Positions 5,231-27,650 of a stretch of DNA of 29,120 nt are shown here, one piece after another. Position 1 is the first letter of the stretch. Each line of letters starts with the position of its first letter. Position numbers and translations under genes: made by a program. A model generated the notes under the pieces. It searched no databases. It had not been told where the DNA came from and worked only from the letters and a program-made list of their open reading frames with translations. Location of the stretch: positions 1-29,120 of the IMG/VR virus record IMGVR_UViG_3300042346_000152; one strand, 5' to 3'. Origin of the DNA: a virus.

Positions 5231-5923
5231 ATGGACAAGTTTTTGGACTATGTAAATGAGATGTGGCCGGAGTTTATTTGTGGGCCGCACCATGAGTTGA
5301 TGGCGCAGAAGTTTGAAGAGGTCGCTGACGGGAAGATAAAGAGGCTGGTTCTAAACGTGCCGCCTCGGTTTACGAAGTCGATGTTTGCTTCGTACTTGTT
5401 GCCTAGCTGGTTCCTTGGCCGGTTTCCTGAGAAGCAGGTGATCCAAGCGGCTGGCTATAGGGATCTGGCTGTAAATTTTAAGCAGCGCGTTGACAAGTTG
5501 ATGGAGTCACAGAAATACGCTCAGGTGTTTCCTCAGCATGGAAAAACTGTAGCTACTAATGTTGGTGGCGCGGTTTGTGGGTATGCGGCTGACTTGTACA
5601 TTGTTGATGATCCGCACGAAAAAAGATTTGTTAAAGAGCGTGACTGTCAAAGTGCCTTTGATTGGTTTAATGACAATGCGATGTGCAGACTAAAACCTGC
5701 GGGCGCTATGGTTGTTGTGATGAGCAGGAGTTCTGAGTATGACTTGACGGCGCGACTTGAAGAACTTGGCGGGTGGGAGGTTGTAAAAATACCTGCTATG
5801 AAGAGTGATGGTTCTTCTACGTGGCCTGAGTTTTGGCCTGATGATCAGTTGCTTGATGTAAAACGAAACATCTCGATTGCAAAATGGCGAATGGAGTTTC
5901 AGTCAAACAATGAAGCTGGATGA
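5231..5923 (+). CDS. ATPase-only paralog of the large terminase (230 aa)
   Basis: The first 80 or so residues match the downstream large terminase at 53 of 80 positions by hand alignment, including LLPSWFLG and the region around Walker A. Here Walker A reads VPPRFTKS instead of GPRHTKS. Walker B is intact (LYIVDDPH). The coupling motif TRW has become SRS, and about 17 residues before Walker B, including the conserved GGxxTGxG segment, are shortened. It ends exactly where the nuclease domain would begin. The frame is open and has a strong SD (AAAGGAGAAG). It may be a regulatory or decaying copy made by tandem duplication. Loss of conserved motor residues makes independent packaging unlikely. 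Confidence 0.75.
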   Translation: MDKFLDYVNEMWPEFICGPHHELMAQKFEEVADGKIKRLVLNVPPRFTKSMFASYLLPSWFLGRFPEKQVIQAAGYRDLAVNFKQRVDKLMESQKYAQVFPQHGKTVATNVGGAVCGYAADLYIVDDPHEKRFVKERDCQSAFDWFNDNAMCRLKPAGAMVVVMSRSSEYDLTARLEELGGWEVVKIPAMKSDGSSTWPEFWPDDQLLDVKRNISIAKWRMEFQSNNEAG

Positions 5924-7400
5924 TCTAGTAGCGAGCCTGTCTCCTGCGGATCAGGAGAAGCTGTTACAGCAGGTACAAGATTACAAAGACGCTTTGGAAA
6001 GGGAGAAGTGTCAGAAGAGCTTCATGGCGTATGTAAAAAAGATGTGGCCGGGGTTTATTCATGGCCGGCATCATGCGGTGATGGCTAAGAAGTTTGAGGA
6101 GATTGCGGAAGGGAAGTTAAAGAGGCTGATCATCAATCTCGGGCCTCGGCACACAAAGAGCCAATTTGCTTCGTACTTGCTGCCTAGTTGGTTTCTTGGA
6201 AAATTTCCCGACAAAAAAATCATTCAAGCATCCAACACTGCGGATCTGGCGGTGAATTTTGGGCGGCAAGTTCGTAACTTGGTTGGGTCTGAGGAGTACG
6301 CAAGAATTTTTCCTAGTGTTGCTTTAAGACAAGACTCCAAGTCTGCGGGTCGGTGGGCTACTAATAAGAACGGCGAATACTTTGCTATTGGTGTTGGTGG
6401 AACGATGACGGGTAAGGGCGCGGACCTTCTTATCATTGACGATCCGCACTCGGAACAAGAGGCTGCTTTAGCCGCTGGTAGGCCGGAAGTCTATGACTCC
6501 GTGTTTGAATGGTACTCATCTGGCCCGCGTCAGCGTCTCCAGCCGGGTGGGGCCATAGTAGTAGTAATGACCAGATGGGCGAAGTCGGACTTAACAGGCA
6601 GGATACTAAAGACCGCTGGCGAGTTGGGTAAGGAAGATCAGTGGGAAGTCATTGAACTTCCGGCGATCATGCCTTCGGGTAAACCCTTATGGCCTGAGTT
6701 TTGGTCGCTTGAGGAACTGTCTGCTCTAAGAGAAGAACTCCCACAGGGTAAGTGGAACGCTCAGTACCAGCAAAATCCCACCGCTGAAGAAGGCGCGATT
6801 GTTAAACGGGAGTGGTGGAAAATTTGGGACCGGGAGAAGCCTCCTTCATGTGAGTTCATCATCCAGTCTTGGGACACTGCTTTTACCAAGGGAGAAAGAA
6901 ACGACTACTCTGCGTGTACTACGTGGGGTGTGTTTCACATGAATGAGAACGAGAATGACGTCAACATCATCTTGTTGGACTGTTTTCAGCGGCGGATGGA
7001 GTTTCCTGAACTAAAAGAGAAGGCATTGTCTCTTTATAGAGAGTGGGAGCCTGATGCTTGTATAGTAGAAGCAAAGGCTGCAGGGGCTCCTTTGATCTTT
7101 GAGCTTAGAAAAATGGGCATTCCGGTATCTGAATACACCCCTAGCCGTGGAAACGACAAGTTTGCCCGTATTAATTCTGTGGCAGATCTGTTCCAATCAG
7201 GTAAAGTGTGGGCTCCAGATACCCGGTGGGCTAGAGAACTCATCGAAAACATGGCCGCTTTCCCGAATGCCCCGCACGACGATGATGTCGATAGCGCAGT
7301 TCAGGCCCTGATCCGCTTCCGGCAGGGTGGTTTCTTGCGTCTACAAACAGACGAACAAGACGAAGTTCGGTCTTTCAGGCGTAAAGTAGCGTTTTACTGA
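5910..7400 (+). CDS. terL: Terminase large subunit (packaging ATPase and nuclease)
   Basis: The 496-aa motor protein cuts concatemeric DNA and pumps it through the portal. The N-terminal ATPase domain shows Walker A GPRHTKS, the conserved GVGGTMTGKGAD block, Walker B LLIIDDPH with the catalytic acid, and the coupling motif VVMTRW. The C-terminal RNase H-like nuclease shows the three acidic sites SWDTAF, DACIVEAKAAG and PHDDDVDSAVQ. The length is normal for the family. ATG 5910 overlaps the end of the paralog gene by 14 bases, with GGAG about 12 bases upstream; an ATG at 5877 is also in frame. The portal gene follows nine bases after the stop. Confidence 0.93.
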   Translation: MKLDDLVASLSPADQEKLLQQVQDYKDALEREKCQKSFMAYVKKMWPGFIHGRHHAVMAKKFEEIAEGKLKRLIINLGPRHTKSQFASYLLPSWFLGKFPDKKIIQASNTADLAVNFGRQVRNLVGSEEYARIFPSVALRQDSKSAGRWATNKNGEYFAIGVGGTMTGKGADLLIIDDPHSEQEAALAAGRPEVYDSVFEWYSSGPRQRLQPGGAIVVVMTRWAKSDLTGRILKTAGELGKEDQWEVIELPAIMPSGKPLWPEFWSLEELSALREELPQGKWNAQYQQNPTAEEGAIVKREWWKIWDREKPPSCEFIIQSWDTAFTKGERNDYSACTTWGVFHMNENENDVNIILLDCFQRRMEFPELKEKALSLYREWEPDACIVEAKAAGAPLIFELRKMGIPVSEYTPSRGNDKFARINSVADLFQSGKVWAPDTRWARELIENMAAFPNAPHDDDVDSAVQALIRFRQGGFLRLQTDEQDEVRSFRRKVAFY

Positions 7401-7409
7401 GGATTCAGC

Positions 7410-9872
7410 ATGTCAGCAAATTTTGCATCCACGACAACACCCCTTGACATGGGGTTGATGACCGAAGAACCGGCGATTGAGATTGAAATTGAAGATCCTG
7501 AGAGCGTAAAAATTGGGATTGACGGCGTTGAGATTGAACTTGAGCCAGAAACTGAGACGACTGAAGAGTTTGATGCCAATCTTGCTGAGTACATGGACGA
7601 GGCGGATCTAGAAGAGTTGGCCTCTGAACTGATTGACTTGGTTGAATCGGACATTAACAGCCGAAAAGACTGGACAGACATGTTTGTCAAGGGCCTGGAA
7701 GTCCTTGGCATGAAGTATGAAGAGCGGACTGAGCCGTGGTCCGGGGCTTGCGGGGTTTATTCACCTCTTTTGACCGAAGCTGCGATCAGGTTTCAGTCGG
7801 AAATGATCACTGAAACCTTCCCGGCACAAGGCCCGGTGAAGACTCAGATCATTGGAGCGATAGATAAGCTCAAAGAAGAAGCAGCAGATCGTGTCAGGGA
7901 TGACATGAACTACATGCTTACTGAAAAGATGATTGACTATCGCTCAGAACACGAGCGGATGCTGTATTCGCTGGGGCTTTCCGGGTCGGCGTTCAAGAAA
8001 ATCTACCCAAACCCGAATACAGAACTGCCGGCTGCGCCGTTCATCCCTGCAGAAGACCTGATCATGCCCTATGGGGCGTCAAATGTGTACACCGCCGAGC
8101 GCGTAACCCATGTGATGCGCAAGACGGAGAACGAAATCAAGAAACTCCAGGTAGCCGGGTTCTACAAGGATATAGAACTTGGTGAGCCTACTCACATTTT
8201 TTCTGATATTGAGAAGAAAAAGGCTGAAGAGCAGGGTTATTCCTTAACGGATGACGATCGCTATCAGGTGATGGAGATCCATGTTGATTTGGACTTGAAA
8301 GGGTACGAAGATGAGATTCCGATTCCCTACATTGTTACTATTGAACGTGGTACTCAGGAAGTTCTTGCAATCCGCAGGAATTGGGAAGAGACGGACAAGA
8401 AAAAACTCAAGCGACAGCACTTCGTTCAATACACCTACATACCGGGGTTTGGTGCTTATGGCCTGGGTTATATCCACATTATTGGTGGTTATGCTCGGGC
8501 TGGCACTTCCATCATTCGCCAACTTGTAGATGCGGGTACGCTGTCTAACCTGCCGGGTGGTTTAAAGTCTCGTGGTTTAAGGATTAAGGGAGACGACACG
8601 CCGATTGCGCCGGGTGAGTTCAGGGATGTAGATGTTCCGTCCGGTGCGGTTAGGGACAACATCATGCCCTTGCCGTACAAGGAGCCGAGTCAGGTTCTGG
8701 CGGCGCTGCTTGAGAAAATTACTGAGGACGGTCGAAGGCTGGCGGCTATTGCTGATCTAAAAATTAGCGACATGAGCGCACAGGCCCCGGTGGGGACTAC
8801 GCTGGCAATTTTGGAGCGGCAACTCAAGACCATGAGTGCTGTTCAGGCGCGGGTTCATGCCTCGCTTCGGATGGAGTTCAAACTTCTGAAGGGAATCATC
8901 AGAGATTTCTTGCCGGATGAGTATTCATACACCCCTGAAGGTGGTGACCGGGCGGTCAAGCGGGCTGACTACGACACGGTAGAGGTAATTCCTGTCAGCG
9001 ATCCAAATGCCGCCACGATGGCGCAGCGGATCATGCAGTACCAAGCTGCTATTCAACTTGCCCAAAGTGCTCCGCAAATCTACGACTTACCACAACTTCA
9101 CCGGCAGATGCTGGAAGTTCTTGGTATCAAGAATGCGGAAAAATTGGTGGCTTTGCCCGGGGATGAAAAGCCGCAAGATCCTGTGACTGAAAACATGAAT
9201 GTTTTGAGAGGCAAGCCGATCAAGGCTTTTGCTTATCAAGATCATGAGGCGCACTTGCTGACGCATCAAGCGTTCATGCAAGATCCAAAAATTGCCGCGA
9301 CGGTTGGGCAGAACCCAATGGCTCAAGGCATGATGGCTGCACTCATGGCTCACATTGCAGAACATGCTGCGTTTGCTTATCGAGCACAGGTAGAGATGGC
9401 ACTGGGAGTTCCCTTGCCGGTGCTGGATCAAGAAAACAACGCTCCCATTGCGCCAGAAGATGAGAAGGCGTTGGCTCCGCTGATTGCCGCTGCGGCTCAG
9501 AGGACGATGGTTCAAAACCAAGCGATGGCCGCGCAGATGCAGGCCCAGCAGCAGGCGCAAGATCCAACGATCCAAATGGCTCAAGCAGAGCTTCAGTTGA
9601 AGCAAGCTGAGATGGAGCGCAAGTCGCAGAACGACCAGATGGACTTCCAAATTGCTCAAGGCAAACTTCAACTTGAGCAGGCCCGACTGGCGCTTGAAGC
9701 CCAAAAGGGGCAAGGTGAAGATCCCCGGCTGAAGGCTATCCGGGCGCAACAAGAACTTCAACACAAGGAGCAGGCACATCAACAAAAGATGAGGCAGCAA
9801 ATTCAATCGGATGCAATCAAAACCAGACAGCAGATGCTTCGCTCTGCTTCCAAACCAAAGGCTAAAGAATGA
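7410..9872 (+). CDS. Portal protein (820 aa)
   Basis: The portal is the dodecameric ring at one capsid vertex through which DNA enters and leaves. Position straight after terL, large size and content support it: an acidic N-terminus (to residue 70), a core with WSGACGVYSPLLTEAAIRFQ and MLYSLGLSGSAFKKIYPNP, a helical segment with YARAGTSIIRQLVDAGTLSN, and a clip-like region. From about residue 690 it is a long Gln/Ala-rich coiled coil (QAELQLKQAEMERKSQ and similar) ending in a basic tail. That tail resembles the long helical barrel of podovirus portals such as P22 gp1. It matches the portal type common in uncultured aquatic short-tailed phages, from memory. Confidence 0.88.
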   Translation: MSANFASTTTPLDMGLMTEEPAIEIEIEDPESVKIGIDGVEIELEPETETTEEFDANLAEYMDEADLEELASELIDLVESDINSRKDWTDMFVKGLEVLGMKYEERTEPWSGACGVYSPLLTEAAIRFQSEMITETFPAQGPVKTQIIGAIDKLKEEAADRVRDDMNYMLTEKMIDYRSEHERMLYSLGLSGSAFKKIYPNPNTELPAAPFIPAEDLIMPYGASNVYTAERVTHVMRKTENEIKKLQVAGFYKDIELGEPTHIFSDIEKKKAEEQGYSLTDDDRYQVMEIHVDLDLKGYEDEIPIPYIVTIERGTQEVLAIRRNWEETDKKKLKRQHFVQYTYIPGFGAYGLGYIHIIGGYARAGTSIIRQLVDAGTLSNLPGGLKSRGLRIKGDDTPIAPGEFRDVDVPSGAVRDNIMPLPYKEPSQVLAALLEKITEDGRRLAAIADLKISDMSAQAPVGTTLAILERQLKTMSAVQARVHASLRMEFKLLKGIIRDFLPDEYSYTPEGGDRAVKRADYDTVEVIPVSDPNAATMAQRIMQYQAAIQLAQSAPQIYDLPQLHRQMLEVLGIKNAEKLVALPGDEKPQDPVTENMNVLRGKPIKAFAYQDHEAHLLTHQAFMQDPKIAATVGQNPMAQGMMAALMAHIAEHAAFAYRAQVEMALGVPLPVLDQENNAPIAPEDEKALAPLIAAAAQRTMVQNQAMAAQMQAQQQAQDPTIQMAQAELQLKQAEMERKSQNDQMDFQIAQGKLQLEQARLALEAQKGQGEDPRLKAIRAQQELQHKEQAHQQKMRQQIQSDAIKTRQQMLRSASKPKAKE

Positions 9873-10060
9873 CTACTGCGTTTGACGTAGTTATCCAAGA
9901 AATCGAAGAGCGCCGCGATGTGATTGCGCAGGCTCTTATCTCAGGTGCGGCAAAAGACTTCCCTGAGTACAAATACATGACGGGTGAGGTACAAGGGTTA
10001 TCTCGTGCTCATGCGTTTATAATCGATCTTGTCAAGCGCATGGAAAATGACGATGACTGA
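9869..10060 (+). CDS. Small acidic phage protein downstream of portal (63 aa)
   Basis: ATG 9869 overlaps the portal stop (ATGA). The product is a short helical protein: FDVVIQEIEERRDVIAQALI, then YKYMTGEVQGLSRAHAFIID, ending in NDDD. Proteins of this size and pattern often follow the portal gene in podovirus-like genomes; a role in head assembly is possible but unproven. The next gene starts inside its last codons. Confidence 0.7.
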   Translation: MTTAFDVVIQEIEERRDVIAQALISGAAKDFPEYKYMTGEVQGLSRAHAFIIDLVKRMENDDD

Positions 10061-10640
10061 TAAGTTATGCAAGTGGTGTTTGCAAACTAAGCCACTAGAA
10101 GCGTTTACTAAAATTAAACGCTTTGCTGATGGTAGGGCAAACAAATGTAAACCGTGCACAAACGCATCTAATGTGGTTTCAGTACGGGCGTATAAAGAAA
10201 GAAATGCTGAAGCCATTCGCAAACAGCAGCGAGAAAAGTACCATGCAGACATTGAAGCGGCACGCGCAAAAAACAGAGCGAAACATCATGCAAACAAAGA
10301 ACGACGGGCGGCATCTGCAAAAGCGTACGCCAAAGCTAACGTAGAAAAACGAAGAGCTTGGACAAGAGCCTGGGCAGCAGCCAACCCAGACTACAACAAA
10401 CAAAAATTAGCACGTAAACGACAGTCGTTGAAGGGCTTAAGCGAGTTTGACAGGTTTGTGCTTGATGAAGCCGCAAGACTTTGCGCAACCCGGCAGTTAA
10501 TGATAGGTGGCGCTTGGGAAATTGATCACATTGTTCCTGTATCTAAGGGCGGGACAAGCGAGCACTACAACATCCAAGTTGTTCCAAAAACTTGGAATGC
10601 GTCAAAAGGCAATCGGAACTGCAATAAGTTCTTGGGATAA
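10053..10640 (+). CDS. HNH homing-type endonuclease (195 aa)
   Basis: The N-terminus has two CxxC pairs (CKWC and CKPC), a probable zinc site. A long Lys/Arg/Ala-rich helical linker follows. The C-terminal HNH core is WEIDHIVPVSKGGTSEHYNI with a final NASKGNRN. The catalytic DH, the central Asn and the last-His position region are visible (the last His is replaced by the SKGN form). It is a free-standing nuclease with no intron seen, wedged between the portal-linked small gene and the GroES-like gene. ATG 10053 overlaps the upstream stop by eight bases. Such enzymes spread themselves between related phages by cutting uninterrupted copies. Confidence 0.85.
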   Translation: MTDKLCKWCLQTKPLEAFTKIKRFADGRANKCKPCTNASNVVSVRAYKERNAEAIRKQQREKYHADIEAARAKNRAKHHANKERRAASAKAYAKANVEKRRAWTRAWAAANPDYNKQKLARKRQSLKGLSEFDRFVLDEAARLCATRQLMIGGAWEIDHIVPVSKGGTSEHYNIQVVPKTWNASKGNRNCNKFLG

Positions 10641-11100: not shown

Positions 11101-12051
11101 ATGGATGATTACAGCGACGTAGATGAAAATTACAACCTCAAAAATCCGCATGAAGCAGAAGCAAAAAAGGCTGCATTAGAGGAAAAGATTGAGTTTGAGG
11201 TTGAAGGCGAAACAAATATCGAGGTCGTTGACGATACGCCTGAGGAAGACCGCAACCGTCCTCCCATGAAGGAGGCACCTACGGAAGTAACTGAAGACGA
11301 ACTCGCACAGTATTCCGAAGGGGTAAAGAAGCGCATCCAGCACTTTTCCAAGGGGTATCACGAGGAGCGCCGCGCTAAAGAGGCGGCTTTGCGTGAGCGA
11401 GAAGAGGCGCTGCGGTTTGCCCAAAACCTAGTTGAGGAGAACAAGAAACTCCAAGGCAGTTTGGGGCAAGGCCAGCAGGCGCTGCTTGAACAGGCTAAGA
11501 AAGTAGTTGCTAACGAGGTCGATCAGGCCAAGGTCAAATACAAACAAGCCTATGAAGCTGGGGACGCCGATGCTTTGGTTGCGGCGCAGGAAGAACTAAC
11601 TGCTGCCAAAATTAAGGCTGAGCGTGTAAACAATTTTAGGCCGCAGGTTGCAAAACCAGAAGAACCTGTGGTACAACCCGCCCCAAGCGTTGCTCAACCT
11701 ATTGTGGATGAGAAAGCCAGAGCGTGGCAAAAGGCCAATCCCTGGTTTACTACAGACCGCAAGATGAGAGCAGTTGCGATGGAAATTCACAATGAACTTG
11801 TAGAAGGCGGTGCAGACACATCAAGCGATGAATACTATCAAAGCATCAATGCTGAGATTAGGAAGATTTTCCCGGATGCGTTCCCTTCGGAGAAAAAGAA
11901 GTCATCGGTTGTAGCCCCCGCCACGCGAAGCACAGCGCCTAAAAAGATCGTGCTAACGCAATCACAAGTACATATCGCCAAGCGGCTTGGTGTTCCTTTG
12001 GAACTCTATGCTAAGCAGGTAGCTGAAGAAATGAGGAAGCAAAATGGCTGA
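11101..12051 (+). CDS. Capsid scaffolding protein (316 aa)
   Basis: The protein has the usual scaffold make-up: a very acidic N-terminal 90 residues and a long coiled coil (HEERRAKEAALREREEALRF, continuing to about residue 190). A Pro/Val-rich linker follows (EEPVVQPAPSVAQP), then a compact helical part with ANPWFTTDRKMRAVAMEIHN, and a basic C-terminus with a helix (LTQSQVHIAKRLGVPLELYA) that could bind coat protein. The gene lies between the portal and coat genes, where scaffolds normally sit. The SD is AAGGAG. The call rests on composition and position, not on a sequence motif. Confidence 0.75.
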   Translation: MDDYSDVDENYNLKNPHEAEAKKAALEEKIEFEVEGETNIEVVDDTPEEDRNRPPMKEAPTEVTEDELAQYSEGVKKRIQHFSKGYHEERRAKEAALREREEALRFAQNLVEENKKLQGSLGQGQQALLEQAKKVVANEVDQAKVKYKQAYEAGDADALVAAQEELTAAKIKAERVNNFRPQVAKPEEPVVQPAPSVAQPIVDEKARAWQKANPWFTTDRKMRAVAMEIHNELVEGGADTSSDEYYQSINAEIRKIFPDAFPSEKKKSSVVAPATRSTAPKKIVLTQSQVHIAKRLGVPLELYAKQVAEEMRKQNG

Positions 12052-13432: not shown

Positions 13433-14344
13433 ATGGCTATTGGACGTGCTCAACTACTCAAAGAACTTCTGCCAGGCTTGAATGCTTTGTTTGGCTTGGA
13501 GTATGCGCGCTACGGCGAACAGCACAAGGAGATCTACGATACGGAGACCTCTGAGCGCTCGTTTGAAGAGGAGACCAAGCTTGCTGGTTTCTCCGCCGCT
13601 CCGGTGAAGAACGAAGGTGCAGCTATTGCGTATGACAATGCGCAAGAAGCCTGGACCGCTCGTTATAACCACGAGACCATTGCGCTGGGTTTCTCTATCA
13701 CCGAAGAGGCGATGGAAGACAACCTGTACGACAGCCTGTCTCAGCGGTATACCAAGGCCCTCGCCCGGGCTATGGCGTACACCAAGCAGATCAAGGCGGC
13801 GGCAGTCCTGAACAACGGCTTCTCTTCGCTTGCTCTGTATGGCGACGGTCAGCCTCTGTTCTCGACGCAACACCCGCTGGTGTCTGGCGGCTTCAACTCT
13901 AACCGGCCCGCTACGGCGGCAGACCTGAACGAAACGTCCCTCGAAGCGGCTGTGATCCAGATCGCTCAGTGGGTCGACGAACGGGGCCTGCTGGTCGCCG
14001 CAAAGCCGCGCAAGTTGATCGTTCCCCAAAACCTCAGCTTCGTTGCAACCCGCCTGCTTGGCACCCAACTCCGAGTAGGAACCACCGACAATGACATCAA
14101 CGCCATTGTTAACAACGGCTCCATCCCGGAAGGCTATACCATCAATAACTTCCTGACCGATCCGAACGCCTGGTTCATCAAGACCGACGTTCCCAACGGC
14201 TTGAAGCACTTTGTCCGTATGCCGCTTGCCACTAGCATGGACGCTGACTTTGATACCGGTAACAACAGGTACAAGGCGCGTGAGAGGTATTCTTTCGGGT
14301 GTTCTGATCCTTTGGGAATGTTCGGCTCCCCCGGAAGCTCCTAA
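13433..14344 (+). CDS. Major capsid protein (303 aa, HK97-fold, Mu gpT-like)
   Basis: The protein forms the icosahedral shell. Recognisable parts are an N-terminal arm (MAIGRAQLLKELLPGLNALF), a segment with FEEETKLAGFSAAPVKNEG and ALGFSITEEAMEDNLYDSL (spine and long helix), GDGQPLFSTQHPL, an A-domain with AAVIQIAQWVDERGLLVAAK and PRKLIVPQNL, and a C-terminal strand YKARERYSFGCSDP. The 'PLFST.HPL' and 'ITEEAMEDNLYD' signatures match the coat proteins grouped with the Mu head subunit gpT, from memory. The normal size, the scaffold upstream and the strong terminator downstream agree. Confidence 0.9.
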   Translation: MAIGRAQLLKELLPGLNALFGLEYARYGEQHKEIYDTETSERSFEEETKLAGFSAAPVKNEGAAIAYDNAQEAWTARYNHETIALGFSITEEAMEDNLYDSLSQRYTKALARAMAYTKQIKAAAVLNNGFSSLALYGDGQPLFSTQHPLVSGGFNSNRPATAADLNETSLEAAVIQIAQWVDERGLLVAAKPRKLIVPQNLSFVATRLLGTQLRVGTTDNDINAIVNNGSIPEGYTINNFLTDPNAWFIKTDVPNGLKHFVRMPLATSMDADFDTGNNRYKARERYSFGCSDPLGMFGSPGSS

Positions 14345-14440: not shown

Positions 14441-14471
14441 TACGGCTCCTATGTTGTGTAACGGAGATCCC

Positions 14472-15308
14472 ATGAAAGAGCCAGTCATCTACAAGATCCG
14501 CAATGTCGTAAACGGCAAGTTTTACGTCGGAAGCACCACTGACACACGCGAACGGTTTCGCACACACCGCTCTCGTTTGCGCAAGGGCGTGCATCACTGT
14601 CGCCACCTCCAGGCCTCTTGGAACAAGTATGGAGAGGACTGTTTTAAGTTTGAAGTTCAAGAAGTGGTTGAGAATGCAACCAAACTTTGGGAGGCTGAGG
14701 CACGTTGGTTGGCTGAGCACTACGGTAAAGCTTATTGCTATAACGCTGGCAGTTCACCAGACGCGCCTATGCGAGGACGTTTTGGTGCAAGCAACCCAAA
14801 GTACAAAGTTCCAATAGCTGAAGAACAAAAAGCCGCAATCTCCGCCACGCTCAAAGCGTTTTACGCTGAAGACCCCAATAACCACCCCCGTGTAGGCAAG
14901 CAGCACACAGAAGAAACCAAAGCAAAAATTAGTGCCAAGGTCAATCAAGCCATAGCCGAAGGTCGAGGCGGTGCTTTCATACCGTCAGAGGAGACGCGGC
15001 AGAAAATGTCGGAAGCACTGAAAGGCAACCAGAACGCTCTTGGCTACAAGCGCACTGATGCCGAGCGTGAGGCTATTCGCCAGCGCACATTAGGCAACCA
15101 AAACTTCCTTGGCAAGAAACACACCGAAGAGTCCAAGCAGAAGATGCGAAAGAGCGTGGTAGAGCGGACATCGGGTCAAGTGTTTGACAGCTTGACTGCT
15201 GTGCTTGCGCACTATCAGATGACCATGCCTACCCTGCGGCGGGCGCTTGTTGCGGGCAAGCCTATTACCAAGGGCAAGTTTGCTGGTTTGGTGTTTGTTT
15301 ACGCTTGA
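14472..15308 (+). CDS. GIY-YIG homing endonuclease with NUMOD3 repeats (278 aa)
   Basis: The N-terminal nuclease domain reads VIYKIRNVVNGKFYVGST (the GIY and YIG strands), with the conserved Arg nearby (ERFRTHRSRLRKG) and Glu later (LWEAEARWLAEHY). The C-terminal part carries NUMOD3-type DNA-binding units with the 'H.EE.K.K' pattern (HTEETKAKISAKV, SEETRQKMSEALKGNQN, HTEESKQKMRKSV) and a final HTH-like segment. ATG 14472 has CGGAG six bases upstream; the earlier ATG at 14451 has none. It sits between a coat terminator and the next structural gene. It probably moves by cutting related phages that lack it. Confidence 0.93.
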   Translation: MKEPVIYKIRNVVNGKFYVGSTTDTRERFRTHRSRLRKGVHHCRHLQASWNKYGEDCFKFEVQEVVENATKLWEAEARWLAEHYGKAYCYNAGSSPDAPMRGRFGASNPKYKVPIAEEQKAAISATLKAFYAEDPNNHPRVGKQHTEETKAKISAKVNQAIAEGRGGAFIPSEETRQKMSEALKGNQNALGYKRTDAEREAIRQRTLGNQNFLGKKHTEESKQKMRKSVVERTSGQVFDSLTAVLAHYQMTMPTLRRALVAGKPITKGKFAGLVFVYA

Positions 15309-18651: not shown

Positions 18652-18903
18652 ATGCCCAAGTCTCCCGCTTGGACCCGGAAAGAGGGTCAAAGTAAGACGG
18701 GCGGATTGAACGCCAAAGGGCGTGCTTCGGCCAAAGCACAGGGCATGAACCTGAAGCCTCCTGCTCCGCATCCAAAAACGGAGAAGGACGCCAAGCGGCG
18801 CAAGTCATTTTGCGCTCGCATGGGCGGTATGCCTGGGCCGATGAAGGATGACAAGGGTAGGCCAACTCGTAAAGCGCTATCATTGAAAGCGTGGAACTGC
18901 TAA
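18652..18903 (+). CDS. DUF6321-like small basic phage protein (83 aa)
   Basis: The start follows the upstream stop by one base. The product reads WTRKEGQSKTGGLNAKGRAS, PPAPHPKTEKDAKRRKSFCA and RMGGMPGPMKDDKGRPTRKA, ending SLKAWNC. This string of motifs is typical of a small Lys/Arg-rich protein of cyanophages and other aquatic phages, catalogued to my memory as DUF6321. No activity is known to me. It might bind DNA or be a head protein, given its charge. Confidence 0.7.
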   Translation: MPKSPAWTRKEGQSKTGGLNAKGRASAKAQGMNLKPPAPHPKTEKDAKRRKSFCARMGGMPGPMKDDKGRPTRKALSLKAWNC

Positions 18904-19037: not shown

Positions 19038-19468
19038 AGTTCAACAAAATTGTTGGTATAACTTTAGTTGTACTGCTACTAACGGCAGCAGTTCACTACA
19101 TGCCAACAATTTTGTCGCAACAGTACACAGAACCTGTGCGTATTGAAAGAGCACTGTTCTATGTAATGCAAGGTGTCAAAGGACTTGTTTTGTATGGAGT
19201 GATCTTGTGGTTGCTTCCAAAGAACAAGTTCATGGTTCCAGTGTGGTTCGCGGTGGCGTGGGCCATGTATGAAGATGCGCTAGTTGTTGGATGCAGGTTA
19301 GCCATAGGAATTGAAAATCCGGTGTCAAAAACCGCAAACCCGTGGGAAGGCATCTGTGAGCAAACAGGCATGGCTAACTACTGGCTTGTGATACCGCCAA
19401 TTTTGGTTGCTTCAACATTGGCTTGCCTTCTTCATGTGAAAGATGAACATGGAAAAACTCTGCGATAA
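19034..19468 (+). CDS. Four-span membrane protein, holin candidate (144 aa)
   Basis: GTG 19034 overlaps the upstream stop. Four hydrophobic segments are visible: about residues 6-28 (VGITLVVLLLTAAV), 45-62 (VKGLVLYGVILWLLP), 66-86 (MVPVWFAVAWAMYEDALVV) and 115-134 (YWLVIPPILVASTLACLL). The end is basic. It overlaps a second membrane protein. The lysis enzymes at 25975 have no holin beside them, so one of these two could supply that function; this is a guess from topology. It could instead be an unrelated inner membrane protein. Confidence 0.6.
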   Translation: MKFNKIVGITLVVLLLTAAVHYMPTILSQQYTEPVRIERALFYVMQGVKGLVLYGVILWLLPKNKFMVPVWFAVAWAMYEDALVVGCRLAIGIENPVSKTANPWEGICEQTGMANYWLVIPPILVASTLACLLHVKDEHGKTLR

Positions 19469-19826
19469 GACTGTTGAAGTTGAAAAGTTAAAGCAGTCAA
19501 CATACTGGACTCGACTTGTTGTTCGTGTTACAAAATTAACAGCATTGCTGGTTGCTTTGCCTTTAGCGGGAGCGTCTGCAGTGAAAGAAGTAGTTCAATC
19601 AAATTCGCAGTCAGCTATGAATTTTCAACACAAGGCTGATGTTGTTGATGCCACCATGAAAGGGTTACCGCCTGTTGCGGTAAGCGGCGCGGCAGCAGCG
19701 GGGATGCAGATCAATGAAGTCATCATGTGGGCAACGCTTGTCTACTTGATCCTTCAGATTGGGTTTTTGTTGTACAAGTGGATACGTTTGCACAATGAGA
19801 AAAGCAAGACGGAAGACAAAGAGTAA
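19443..19826 (+). CDS. Two-span membrane protein, holin-like (127 aa)
   Basis: Two transmembrane segments are visible (about residues 26-47, VTKLTALLVALPLAGASAV, and 91-112, VIMWATLVYLILQIGFLLY). A polar loop lies between them and a strongly charged C-terminus (NEKSKTEDKE) follows, the layout of class II holins. The gene overlaps its upstream neighbour by 26 bases and the next start by one base. ATG 19449 is an alternative start. No motif proves holin activity, and it is about 7 kb from the endolysin. Confidence 0.6.
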   Translation: MNMEKLCDKTVEVEKLKQSTYWTRLVVRVTKLTALLVALPLAGASAVKEVVQSNSQSAMNFQHKADVVDATMKGLPPVAVSGAAAAGMQINEVIMWATLVYLILQIGFLLYKWIRLHNEKSKTEDKE

Positions 19827-20164
19827 TGCCGGTCAAGTCTGAAGCTCAGCGTAGGCTGATGTACGCGGCGTTGAAAGATCCCAAGGGCGTTGGCATCCCC
19901 CGTAGTGTTGCCGAGAAGTTTGTTGGGCCGAAAGCCCATGCTGAAGGAGGCGATGTGAAAGAGTCCAAGGAAATGATGAAGAAGGAAGTGGCCTTCATGA
20001 AGAAGAAGGGCGCTCCGAAGTCCATGCTCAAGCACGAGATGGCCGAAGCCAAGGGCAAGAAGATGATGGGCGGCGGCATGGCTTATGCCAAGGGCGGCGG
20101 CGTCGAGTCCAAGGGCAAGACCAAGGGCAAGATGGTCAAGATGATGCGCGGGGGCAAGTGCTAA
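19826..20164 (+). CDS. Lys/Gly/Met-rich basic protein with KGG motif (112 aa)
   Basis: The N-terminus (MPVKSEAQRRLMYAALKDPK, then GIPRSVAEKFVG) matches a short protein common in aquatic phages, with 'SEAQRR.M.AAL' and 'P...A.KFV' motifs. It continues as a Lys/Met helix (KEMMKKEVAFMKKKGAPKSM) and ends in a glycine-rich basic tail with AKGGGVESKGKTKGK. It is strongly positive and probably DNA- or RNA-binding, or packed in the head. The KGG tail is shared with neighbouring genes. Confidence 0.72.
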   Translation: MPVKSEAQRRLMYAALKDPKGVGIPRSVAEKFVGPKAHAEGGDVKESKEMMKKEVAFMKKKGAPKSMLKHEMAEAKGKKMMGGGMAYAKGGGVESKGKTKGKMVKMMRGGKC

Positions 20165-20174
20165 GGAGATAAAA

Positions 20175-20570
20175 ATGCCTGCTATTGATCCAAAGTCTTT
20201 GTCTACAAAGTTGCAAAATAGAGCGCCATCAAGAAACTTGACACCACAAGAAATGCAAATGGCTATTGCACAAATGAAGTCTCCATCGGCACCGACGGCA
20301 CCGCGTTCGACGCGCCGCTTTGATAGCGGGCTTAACCCGGATGATTCTCCAATAATGCCTCCGCGTGTTGAAGAAATGCTCCCTGCTAATTTTGTAGAAG
20401 AGGCTCCTCCGCAACTTCCTATGCAGTCAAACAGTGGCATGGTAAACCCGCGCCGTCGCCTGCCAATGACCCCCTACGGTGAGCCGTCTTTTGCAAAAGG
20501 TGGTGTTGTCAAGTCCAAGGGGATTGACGGCTGTGCCCAGCGTGGTAAGACCAAGGGGAAGTACATCTGA
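20175..20570 (+). CDS. Proline-rich phage protein with C-terminal KGG/RGKTKG tail (131 aa)
   Basis: After an AAGGAG SD the product starts MPAIDPKSLSTKLQNRAPSR. It has a helix (LTPQEMQMAIAQMKSP), a long disordered Pro/Ser/Arg-rich middle, and ends in FAKGGVVKSKGIDGCAQRGK followed by TKGKYI. The ending recurs in small proteins of uncultured aquatic phages, from memory. No enzymatic domain. The stop overlaps the next start by one base. Confidence 0.68.
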   Translation: MPAIDPKSLSTKLQNRAPSRNLTPQEMQMAIAQMKSPSAPTAPRSTRRFDSGLNPDDSPIMPPRVEEMLPANFVEEAPPQLPMQSNSGMVNPRRRLPMTPYGEPSFAKGGVVKSKGIDGCAQRGKTKGKYI

Positions 20571-20800
20571 TGCGCGCCAGTAGGGGCATGGGCGCTATCC
20601 GTAAAGGTTTGACAAAGCAGCGCCGTGACAACACAGACTTTACCGAGTATGCAAAAGGTGGAGAAGTTGGGCTTTATGACCGCATCAACGCCAAGCGCAA
20701 GCGGATTGCCGCTGGATCGGGTGAAAAAATGCGCAAGCCGGGTTCTCCCGGCGCTCCTACTGCCAAAGCCTTCAAGCGTTCTGCGATGACAGCAAAGTAA
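20570..20800 (+). CDS. Basic KGG-motif protein (76 aa)
   Basis: The product has an Arg/Gly-rich start (MRASRGMGAIRKGLTKQRRD), the YAKGGEVGLYDRINAKRKRI core and a final GSPGAPTAKAFKRSAMTAK. It is very basic and low complexity at the end. The core, with a 'KGG.VGLYD.I..KR.RI..GS.E' pattern, is familiar from phages of aquatic bacteria; a head-DNA or internal virion protein is possible. It is coupled to the upstream gene. Confidence 0.68.
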   Translation: MRASRGMGAIRKGLTKQRRDNTDFTEYAKGGEVGLYDRINAKRKRIAAGSGEKMRKPGSPGAPTAKAFKRSAMTAK

Positions 20801-20825
20801 ATGTTGCGTTGATAGCAAAGTAAAT
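20791..20825. repeat. 12-bp direct repeat AGCAAAGTAAAT
   Basis: Exact copies lie at 20791-20802 and 20814-20825, each after GA[CT]. They span the stop of one gene and the start of the next and look like a short slippage duplication. Confidence 0.6.
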
Positions 20826-20826
20826 C

Positions 20827-21522
20827 ATGACCACATCCGGCGCAGCTACGTTCAATCTTGACCTCAATGAATGCGTCGAGGAAGCGTTCGAGCGTTGCGG
20901 CACGGAGTTGCGTACTGGCTATGATCTGCGCACAGCCCGTAGGTCGTTAAATTTGTTGCTGGCAGATTGGGCGAACAGGGGTTTGAATTTATGGTGCGTG
21001 GAGCAAGGCCAACAAGTCTTGACTCCTGGCACAAACACTTACACCTTGCCGGCTGACACGGTAGATTTGATTGAGCATGTGATCCGCACGGGCGCGGGCA
21101 ATGTCTCTACTCAGACTGATCTGACCATCACGCGTATCAGTGTTTCTACCTACTCGTCCATTCCCAACAAGTTGCAACAAGCAAGGCCGATTCAGGTGTG
21201 GATCAATCGGCAAGCTGATGCGCCAGAGTTTACGGTGTGGCCTACGCCTGATGATTCTCAGACATACACGTTTGTCTACTGGCGGCTTCGCAGGATTCAA
21301 GACGCTGGGGCTGGTGGTACTTATACGCAAGACATACCGTTCCGTTTTCTGCCGGCGCTGATATCTGGGCTGGCTTATCAACTGTCCATGAAGATCCCGA
21401 ATGCGATGGATCGGATGCAAATTTTGAAGGCTCAGTACGAGCAAGACTGGGAGTTGGCTAGTTCCGAGGACCGCGAAAAGGCAGCTATTCGGTTAATTCC
21501 AAGACAGATGTTTGTGAGTTAG
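20827..21522 (+). CDS. Head-tail adaptor, P22 gp4-like (231 aa)
   Basis: The N-terminal helices (DLNECVEEAFERCGTELRTG, YDLRTARRSLNLLLADWANR) are typical of the gp4/ttpA-type adaptors that attach to the portal and seal the DNA. A beta region follows (VLTPGTNTYTLPADTVDLIE, FTVWPTPDDSQTYTFVYWR). The C-terminal helix contains FLPALISGLAYQLSMKIP and the conserved end KAQYEQDWELASSEDREK. The match is to the P22 gp4 style of neck protein. There is no SD close to the start, but the order and length fit. Confidence 0.7.
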   Translation: MTTSGAATFNLDLNECVEEAFERCGTELRTGYDLRTARRSLNLLLADWANRGLNLWCVEQGQQVLTPGTNTYTLPADTVDLIEHVIRTGAGNVSTQTDLTITRISVSTYSSIPNKLQQARPIQVWINRQADAPEFTVWPTPDDSQTYTFVYWRLRRIQDAGAGGTYTQDIPFRFLPALISGLAYQLSMKIPNAMDRMQILKAQYEQDWELASSEDREKAAIRLIPRQMFVS

Positions 21523-21523
21523 T

Positions 21524-21907
21524 ATGAGCAACCGTTTTGCCAACGGCAAAAAATCCTTTGGGTTTTGCGATCGTTGTGGCTTCCGCTTTGACTTGAAGAA
21601 GTTGAAGAACGAGGTAGTCAAAACAAAGCAGACTCAGATTCGTTCTTGCCCGGATTGCTGGAGCCCGGACCATCCGCAGCTTCAGTTGGGCATGTACCCT
21701 GTTGCTGACCCGCAGGCTATCCGCGATCCTCGGCCTGACACGAATACTTGGTACGCATCTGGAGTAACTTCTAGTGGGACAATCGGAGAAGGTAGTCGGG
21801 TAATTGAGTGGGGGTGGGCACCAGTTGGGGGTGCTAGTGGCGTGATGAGTGGAGTGACACCAAATTCCTTGGTTGCCAATGGATATGTTGCTACAGTAAC
21901 AGTTTAA
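21524..21907 (+). CDS. Zinc-ribbon-containing phage structural protein (127 aa)
   Basis: The N-terminus has two cysteine pairs 28 residues apart (FCDRCGFRFDLKKL and SCPDCWSP), consistent with a zinc ribbon. The rest is Gly/Ser/Val-rich and beta-like (YASGVTSSGTIGEGSRVIEW), ending in YVATVTV. The gene starts one base after the gp4-like adaptor stop. A neck or tail structural role with zinc is inferred from place and composition. Confidence 0.7.
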   Translation: MSNRFANGKKSFGFCDRCGFRFDLKKLKNEVVKTKQTQIRSCPDCWSPDHPQLQLGMYPVADPQAIRDPRPDTNTWYASGVTSSGTIGEGSRVIEWGWAPVGGASGVMSGVTPNSLVANGYVATVTV

Positions 21908-21916
21908 GGAGCACAC

Positions 21917-22066
21917 ATGAAGATGACACCTGAAAAGGCCGTGGCGAAGCATGAAAAGCGCATGCACCCTGGCAAGAAGCCATCCTTTAAGAAGGGTGGC
22001 CCTACCACTGAAGACCGACTGAAGTACGGGAAGAACATGGCCCGTGTGATGAACCAGAAGGGGTGA
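21917..22066 (+). CDS. Small basic KGG-motif protein (49 aa)
   Basis: ATG 21917 follows TAAGGAG and reads MKMTPEKAVAKHEKRMHPGK with a SFKKGGPTTEDRLKYGKNMA core, ending VMNQKG. The protein is very basic, shares the [FY]xKGG motif with the group at 19826-20800, and ends four bases before the next start. It was too short for routine gene calling. Confidence 0.65.
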   Translation: MKMTPEKAVAKHEKRMHPGKKPSFKKGGPTTEDRLKYGKNMARVMNQKG

Positions 22067-27023: not shown

Positions 27024-27650
27024 TCAAGAAACTTTACGTTTGTTGTCCCAATATGCTTTTCTGGCAGCGGATAGTTTGGCGCGGTATTCCGGCGTGTCCC
27101 ACTCGGCACGACGAGCCTTGAATTCTGGTGAATTCATGGTTACCTTAAGTCGCTCCTTGCGTTGGGCGAGCGCCTCTGGTGTTGACATTTTTTCGCGCCT
27201 TCGATCTTGGGCTTTTTGTATGCCCTGTATGCGGCGTTTTTTAATCTCAGTGTCAGTGTTGAGTATTTTGTGGTACTCACGCATTGGATTAGTTGGGTCA
27301 AGTAAGCGCTGGCGTTTTGCCTCCAACACTTCTTGTCTTGGTCGAGTTACGCCTTCTCCGCCGTCTGTAAAGTTTGCAAGCGTGCCTCCGTCAGAAATGC
27401 GCTTAAAGTGCGCAATTAAAGATTTTTCTAGTGAGCAAGCATCTTCCCAAGAAACCCGAACAAAGCGTTGTACTTTTATGTTCTCCGGTCCATACTTCTG
27501 CACCATCCGGAAGCACAAAGTGTTGCGATCTTTTGTCTTGATGCATGTCGGCTTCCAACGCGTAGAAGTCTTGCCAATTCCGACATAAAACGGAATCCAG
27601 TCAGGGCTAAACCAAATGTACACGTACGCAGAAGCATCGAGTGTTTTCAT
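27024..27650 (-). CDS. GIY-YIG endonuclease on the reverse strand (208 aa)
   Basis: The N-terminal GIY-YIG region reads YVYIWFSPDWIPFYVGIGKT with a conserved Arg (STRW) soon after. The Glu-bearing helix SLEKSLIAHFKRISDGG follows, then TLANFTDGGEGVTRP and a long basic helical C-terminus with repeated 'S.E...R' blocks (NSPEFKARRAEWDTPEYRAK). It points against all surrounding genes, between the lysis cassette and a tail gene; its start faces that of the tail gene across 14 bases. AT-richer than the lysis genes. A free-standing homing nuclease is the likely reading. Confidence 0.85.
   Translation of the reverse strand: MKTLDASAYVYIWFSPDWIPFYVGIGKTSTRWKPTCIKTKDRNTLCFRMVQKYGPENIKVQRFVRVSWEDACSLEKSLIAHFKRISDGGTLANFTDGGEGVTRPRQEVLEAKRQRLLDPTNPMREYHKILNTDTEIKKRRIQGIQKAQDRRREKMSTPEALAQRKERLKVTMNSPEFKARRAEWDTPEYRAKLSAARKAYWDNKRKVS

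Follow-up and report, generated by a model that had tools for sequence, protein, structure and literature searches.

A conserved C-terminal tag on unrelated small phage proteins encoded mainly between capsid and adaptor genes: a candidate sorting signal

Results

Gene map of the window and the four motif genes

We analyzed the 29,120-nt virus record IMGVR_UViG_3300042346_000152 (the window, meaning this whole stretch of DNA), in which a set of 30 genes was read; the features of interest are collected in Table 1, with genes called by their first position. As in the SU10/Pam1 adaptor module, a homologous adaptor is present, which is 50.2% identical to a DSL-LC04 protein annotated as Pam1 adaptor, while a comparison by sequence with solved structures gave no match except a chance-level lectin.

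Table 1. Features of the window discussed in the text
Feature	Position	Strand	Remarks
Portal	7410-9872		phrog_1216
Major capsid protein	13433..14344	+	phrog_371; upstream border of tagged-gene block
DUF6321 protein without tag	18652..18903	+	in relatives, tag appended after ...AWNC
Holin-like gene	19443-19826		
Tagged gene 1 (112 aa)	19826..20164	+	N-terminal module resembling phrog_16759, then longer-form C-terminal tag; YAKGG at aa 87
C-terminal tag of gene 19826	20084..20161	+	YAKGGGVESKGKTKGKMVKMMRGGKC
Tagged gene 2 (131 aa)	20175..20570	+	FAKGG at aa 106; cargo replaced in near-identical phages L165, L234
Exchanged cargo of gene 20175	20165..20522	+	unalignable to L165; for L234, 20166-20483
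C-terminal tag of gene 20175	20490..20567	+	FAKGGVVKSKGIDGCAQRGKTKGKYI
Module-joint gene (76 aa)	20570..20800	+	SRGMG-type N-terminal segment, YAKGG (aa 27; 20648-20662), phrog_16028 module
Pam1/SU10-type adaptor	20827..21522	+	PF24175 above cut-off, E 8.3e-15
Module-joint gene (49 aa)	21917..22066	+	FKKGG (aa 24; 21986-22000), then PTTEDRLKYGKN

The original prediction had singled out an [FY]xKGG motif in genes 19826, 20175, 20570 and 21917, and all four do carry it, with no other gene among the 30 having [FY].KGG. In 20,000 rounds of composition-preserving shuffles of these hand-picked genes, the number of motif genes averaged 0.126 with a maximum of 3, none reaching 4, and a looser form, [FYAVKI].?KGG, had seven matches in the six frames of the window, four of them in the named genes. 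Two genes inside the 19826-22066 interval are free of the motif, namely the adaptor and the gene at 21524-21907. The four motif genes are not one thing: genes 19826 and 20175 end in a C-terminal tag, with the [FY]xKGG motif at its front and an RGKTKG-type tail at the C-terminus, while the motif of genes 20570 and 21917 is linked to other modules instead. The core named in the original prediction, [FY]xKGG, makes up just the first half of the tag, and does so in two of the four genes.

Several other features of the window are recorded here as observations. Two overlapping terminase-like ORFs (5231-5923 and 5877-7400) share a similar N-terminal sequence and look like a duplication when the translations are read by eye, and homing-endonuclease-like ORFs, GIY-YIG- or HNH-type by eye, were seen at 14451-15308, 10029-10640 and 27024-27650 (minus strand), with one directly 3' of the capsid gene. 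The DUF6321 protein and the phrog_16028 module of gene 20570 both match phrog_11180, and the corresponding genes adjoin each other in cyanophage KBS-P-1A; DUF6321 matches 507 phage records, cyanophages for the most part.

Sequence, forms and occurrence of the tag

The tag comprises about 26 C-terminal residues with the consensus [FYM]xKGG-x-V-xx-SAS-x-RADG[CI]A-x-[RK]GKT[KR]G[RK]-[MF]-V-stop. Across a set of 294 loci, three window pieces included, [FY].KGG is carried by 524 ORFs of the + strand and 2 ORFs of the other; in loci fetched with proteins, + denotes the strand that the query matched. A regular expression for the tag (GG, a spacer, [RKQS]GK[TRS][KRS] and a nearby stop) matched 678 ORFs (546 distinct) among 30,246, on contigs of IMG/VR and on three GTDB contigs that look phage-like, and the parts preceding the tag, which we call cargo (541 with a length of 20 aa or more), fell into 159 sequence clusters. 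As GK is forced by this expression, its conservation in the matched ORFs is not independent of the search; among 144 C-termini anchored on DG[CIV], where GKT was not demanded, K was found in 130 and T in 143. Tag-bearing segments numbered 396 of 35,807 in real DNA vs. 0 of 38,902 in reversed DNA, which together with the shuffles rules out composition as the source of the motif or the tag.

At least 120 stretches of tag core DNA were found in IMG/VR; among the matches listed (155 in 119 loci), 151 have GG within 16 residues before the core and 134 end within 20 codons. The same core pattern gave 83 stretches in GTDB genomes, chance for the most part; seven matches look real upon reading, on contigs L432 (three), L478 (two), L462 and L485, all four of which, albeit binned with bacterial genomes, are probably phage contigs. 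Among 87 loci having capsid and adaptor genes, the strict expression had no match in 10, eight of which were viewed (all except L119 and L141): L255, L108/L109, L297 and L224 have variant tags outside the expression, L295 has a divergent relative, and L296 and L298 are without it. The tag is also present in the isolate MinM2, a Synechococcus phage, with R replacing K, the isolates Pag-Yong1 (a Planktothrix phage) and Pra-JY27 have the same match, and DSL-LC04 has a divergent relative. We came across no account of the tag in our literature searches.

In the common form of the tag (118 of 159 clusters), the stop is nine residues along, counted from the R/K of [RK]GKT, while a second, longer form, as in gene 19826, continues KMVKMxxGGKxC. 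Within the front element, GG varies least, as might be anticipated if a protease were to cut after it and remove the tail in the manner of prohead maturation; there is a precedent in the T4 internal protein IPI, which is proteolysed to a mature form (PMC3012670). We judge a processing signal of this kind, which had been put forward in the original prediction, to be highly improbable, since a cleavage site alone needs no conserved residues beyond it, up to a fixed stop, and our analysis found no support for it; nor was a protease identified, short of a systematic search.

The mean net charge of the tag is +6.8, and the cargo is positively charged in 90% of 145 cluster representatives; in addition, G occupies position -4 (G-x4-G-K-T) in 158 of 159 clusters, which, where the Lys is kept, gives the letters of a Walker A motif, G-x4-G-K-[ST]. 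These features would befit a nucleic-acid- or phosphate-binding tail that grips the DNA backbone with G-x4-G-K-T, the proteins thereby coating or condensing phage DNA. We regard such a role as rather unlikely, as charge alone would not conserve the D, C/I, A and T residues and the exact chain end, the Lys is replaced in 14 of the 144 C-termini chosen without demanding it, and low-confidence AlphaFold2 models have no strand-loop-helix around this Lys. A strict P-loop NTPase was rejected on the grounds that these low-confidence models lack a strand before the tag core and that the commonest form ends nine residues past the R/K. The models, built on shallow alignments (34 and 5 sequences) with mean pLDDT of 61.6 and 58.9, are to be taken as weak evidence. 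In gene 19826, pLDDT is below 50 at residues 78-92, and a low-confidence short helix is predicted at 101-107; in a tagged DUF6321 protein, residues 87-107 are below 50. Modeled in this way, the tag region is compatible with a disordered linear motif.

The front element as a proposed separable part

The original prediction would have been weakened by a motif unconserved in homologues, but the motif is kept there in the loose form [FYMLHW]-x-x-GG. For the 20570, 21917 and 19826 types, this form is present in 160 of 165, 14 of 14 and 77 of 77 ORFs, and the strict [FY].KGG in 44, 10 and 62 of these homologues, respectively. In the 20570 type, where YAEGG is the commonest form, the Lys is not essential, as just 44 ORFs of that type have the strict motif. 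Aromatic-x-x-GG is also found as a link between modules in ORFs of the 20570 and 21917 types, and near the N-terminus, as [FYW]xxGG, in 37 of 269 tagged ORFs vs. 42 of 5,800 untagged ORFs, the latter probably being for the most part not genes. It is possible that the N-terminal occurrence represents a second copy of the front element; we surmise that aromatic-x-x-GG is a separable part of the proposed signal, given its occurrence near some N-termini and at the module joint in genes 20570 and 21917 as well as in the tag. Some tagged proteins (loci L004-L298) have a basic N-terminal start followed by aromatic-x-x-GG, e.g. MKKKVKKYAEGG. In a near-identical phage, a 20570-type gene (L165:818-973) keeps the N-terminal part and YAKGG, with the phrog_16028 module lost.

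Exchange of cargo at the tag boundary

Swaps of cargo at the tag boundary are already visible in nature among near-identical phages. The slot of gene 20175 holds a protein of 131 aa in the window, 75 aa in L165 and 172 aa in L234, with the same tag at the end, and alignable sequence begins again at 20484 for L234 and at 20523 for L165, either shortly ahead of the tag or within it. One of these close relatives also has an additional tagged gene directly 3' of the adaptor (L234:7552-7908), which is missing from the window. At adaptor identities of 99-100%, 97-99%, 95-97% and 90-95%, tagged genes without a counterpart numbered 2 of 172, 1 of 5, 18 of 38 and 185 of 301, respectively, counted only in loci with long upstream sequence and in pairs that share loci and hence are not independent. 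At 90-95% adaptor identity, the alignable fraction of DNA was 0.449 upstream vs. 0.724 downstream; at 95-99%, the contrast was small (0.708 vs. 0.740, 9 pairs). Among 313 distinct breakpoints in 196 genes, 155 fell in the tag, 69 at gene starts, 18 at stops and 71 in cargo interiors, where a uniform distribution would give 84, 37, 2.6 and 189, respectively.

The tag is also appended to DUF6321 proteins, which occur untagged as well, as exemplified by 15 ORFs that end in ...RAWNC plus the tag, with the window's own DUF6321 protein stopping at ...KAWNC. Taken with the 159 cargo clusters and the swaps above, this bears out the earlier proposal of a common tag on otherwise different proteins.

Clustering of breakpoints at the tag would also be expected if the shared 3' ends were mainly a DNA-level joint for gene exchange by homologous recombination, with a nearly functionless peptide, and some paralogous tags of one genome are indeed identical in DNA (L341). 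In 55 within-genome tag pairs from different clusters, fourfold third bases agreed at 0.51 vs. 0.36 expected, while core amino acid identity was 0.88; we take these figures to mean that the peptide has been kept while some DNA was exchanged recently. A DNA-only element is disfavored, and in our view very unlikely, because codons vary freely among clusters while the amino acids are kept.

Cargo families and genomic setting

To annotate the cargo, 135 of 165 tagged representatives were searched against Pfam, PHROGs and PADLOC, with few matches; those to PADLOC (E 0.005-0.006, one member each) and to a PHROG endolysin (0.0077) were treated as chance, and a profile of the 135 compared with solved structures gave nothing convincing. 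Cargo was cut at the tag before clustering, as masking the five motif residues alone merged 281 of 328 proteins via the shared tail; the largest cluster (201), formed by single linkage, probably comprises several families, and wrong start codons (some ORFs open with the preceding tag read out of frame) may split or lengthen other clusters. Two PHROGs annotated as virion structural protein, 22033 and 25121, matched 4 and 3 of the 135 representatives, respectively, and some tagged proteins have an N-terminal module similar to the beginning of jumbo-phage structural proteins (CBB and GAP32), with one cargo module homologous to the N-terminus of CBB_322. In the CBB virion structural protein table, CBB_322 is entered with 30 and 43.57, taken here as peptides and percent coverage (PMC5259590). 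The CBB_322 homology and the PHROG matches support virion association of a cargo module, not of the tag. The small basic phage modules DUF6321 (PF19846), phrog_16028 and the SKAQ-type module of jumbo phages are present in window genes 18652 and 20570 and in some tagged cargo; they are untagged in those cyanophage, Methylophilales-phage and jumbo-phage regions that were read (L501-L506).

In adaptor-bearing loci, all 619 tagged genes are on the adaptor strand, 587 upstream and 32 downstream, and in loci that also hold a capsid gene, 177 of 185 tagged genes lie between capsid and adaptor; these linkage counts are inflated, as the adaptor served as query for many loci and some contigs were fetched repeatedly. 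The fairer set is that fetched by tag DNA alone, in which, among the matches listed, the adaptor was found in 98 of 119 loci, and all 51 loci of at least 8 kb held one or more of six structural genes belonging to this phage type. At most, this gene position would indicate late co-expression. The tag does not appear to be essential to heads with a Pam1/SU10-type adaptor, because HTVC023P and CRP-901 share the adaptor family and have no tag in the regions read.

Late expression would also be in keeping with a tag that sends proteins to a host component (e.g. membrane, ribosome or polymerase) without their ever being in the particle. The holin-like gene in the same block implies that not all block genes are structural, and the diversity of cargo fits host-directed functions; we nevertheless consider a host target quite unlikely, since it would not predict linkage of the tag to one phage head/tail type, though shared hosts could give such linkage.

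Discussion

We found a constant peptide at the end of many unrelated, small and mostly basic proteins, whose genes lie in the putatively late block reaching from the capsid to the adaptor genes in phages having a Pam1/SU10-type adaptor. We propose a sorting role for the C-terminal tag: as a short linear signal, it would bring rapidly exchanged proteins to the assembling head, a reading to which we give about an even chance. The tag would bind a conserved partner of the assembling head, be it scaffold (11101-12051 in the window), capsid protein, portal or adaptor, and tagged proteins would thereby be taken into or onto the particle; some of them may well be delivered with the DNA, in which case a changing cargo would pay, e.g. 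against host defense. The original prediction had spoken of a binding or targeting signal and of virion or DNA association. The common tag is strongly supported, with targeting or binding as its likeliest use, and the evidence that points to the virion (position among head/tail genes, a single adaptor type, cargo-module homology to a CBB virion protein) is circumstantial. An association with DNA is possible in view of the basic nature of the tag.

The closest precedents that we know are the capsid targeting sequence (CTS) of T4 internal proteins and the packaging signal of P1 DarB. The T4 CTS is at the N-terminus, unlike the tag, which is C-terminal and ends at the stop, with N-terminal [FYW]xxGG on only 37 of 269 tagged ORFs. 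Like the CTS, the tag is a short conserved peptide common to unrelated proteins (here 159 cargo clusters); T4 internal proteins are described as highly diverse and having only the conserved targeting sequence in common (PMC3012670). Also as in T4, cargo differs among close relatives, as evidenced by the swaps in the 20175 slot with breakpoints at the tag. In T4, which is a different phage type, packaging, cleavage and injection have been demonstrated. In P1 DarB, the first 30 residues direct a reporter to the capsid as an N-terminal packaging signal (PMC9024508). The likeness lies in a terminal segment as particle-targeting signal, sufficient in DarB and proposed here, and the difference in its being N-terminal on one protein in DarB vs. 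C-terminal with one consensus on 159 cargo clusters here. We regard T4 and P1 as precedents for function rather than as systems to which the tag belongs, because it does not have the N-terminal position that defines them; conditional on the sorting function, the tag would be a variant of a terminal virion-targeting signal.

A bolder form of this proposal, which we advance tentatively and hold to be possible rather than probable, is that one C-terminal address tag, universal within a large group of freshwater podophages, loads a rotating library of unrelated small proteins, of well over 100 families, into the virion for delivery, as a modular cargo system. If the sorting reading is true, hundreds of present hypotheticals would become one recognizable class, candidate virion cargo could be found in freshwater phage contigs by a simple sequence rule, and the tag would be portable for packaging. 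If the cargo is injected, its changing set would be a place to seek new counter-defense proteins.
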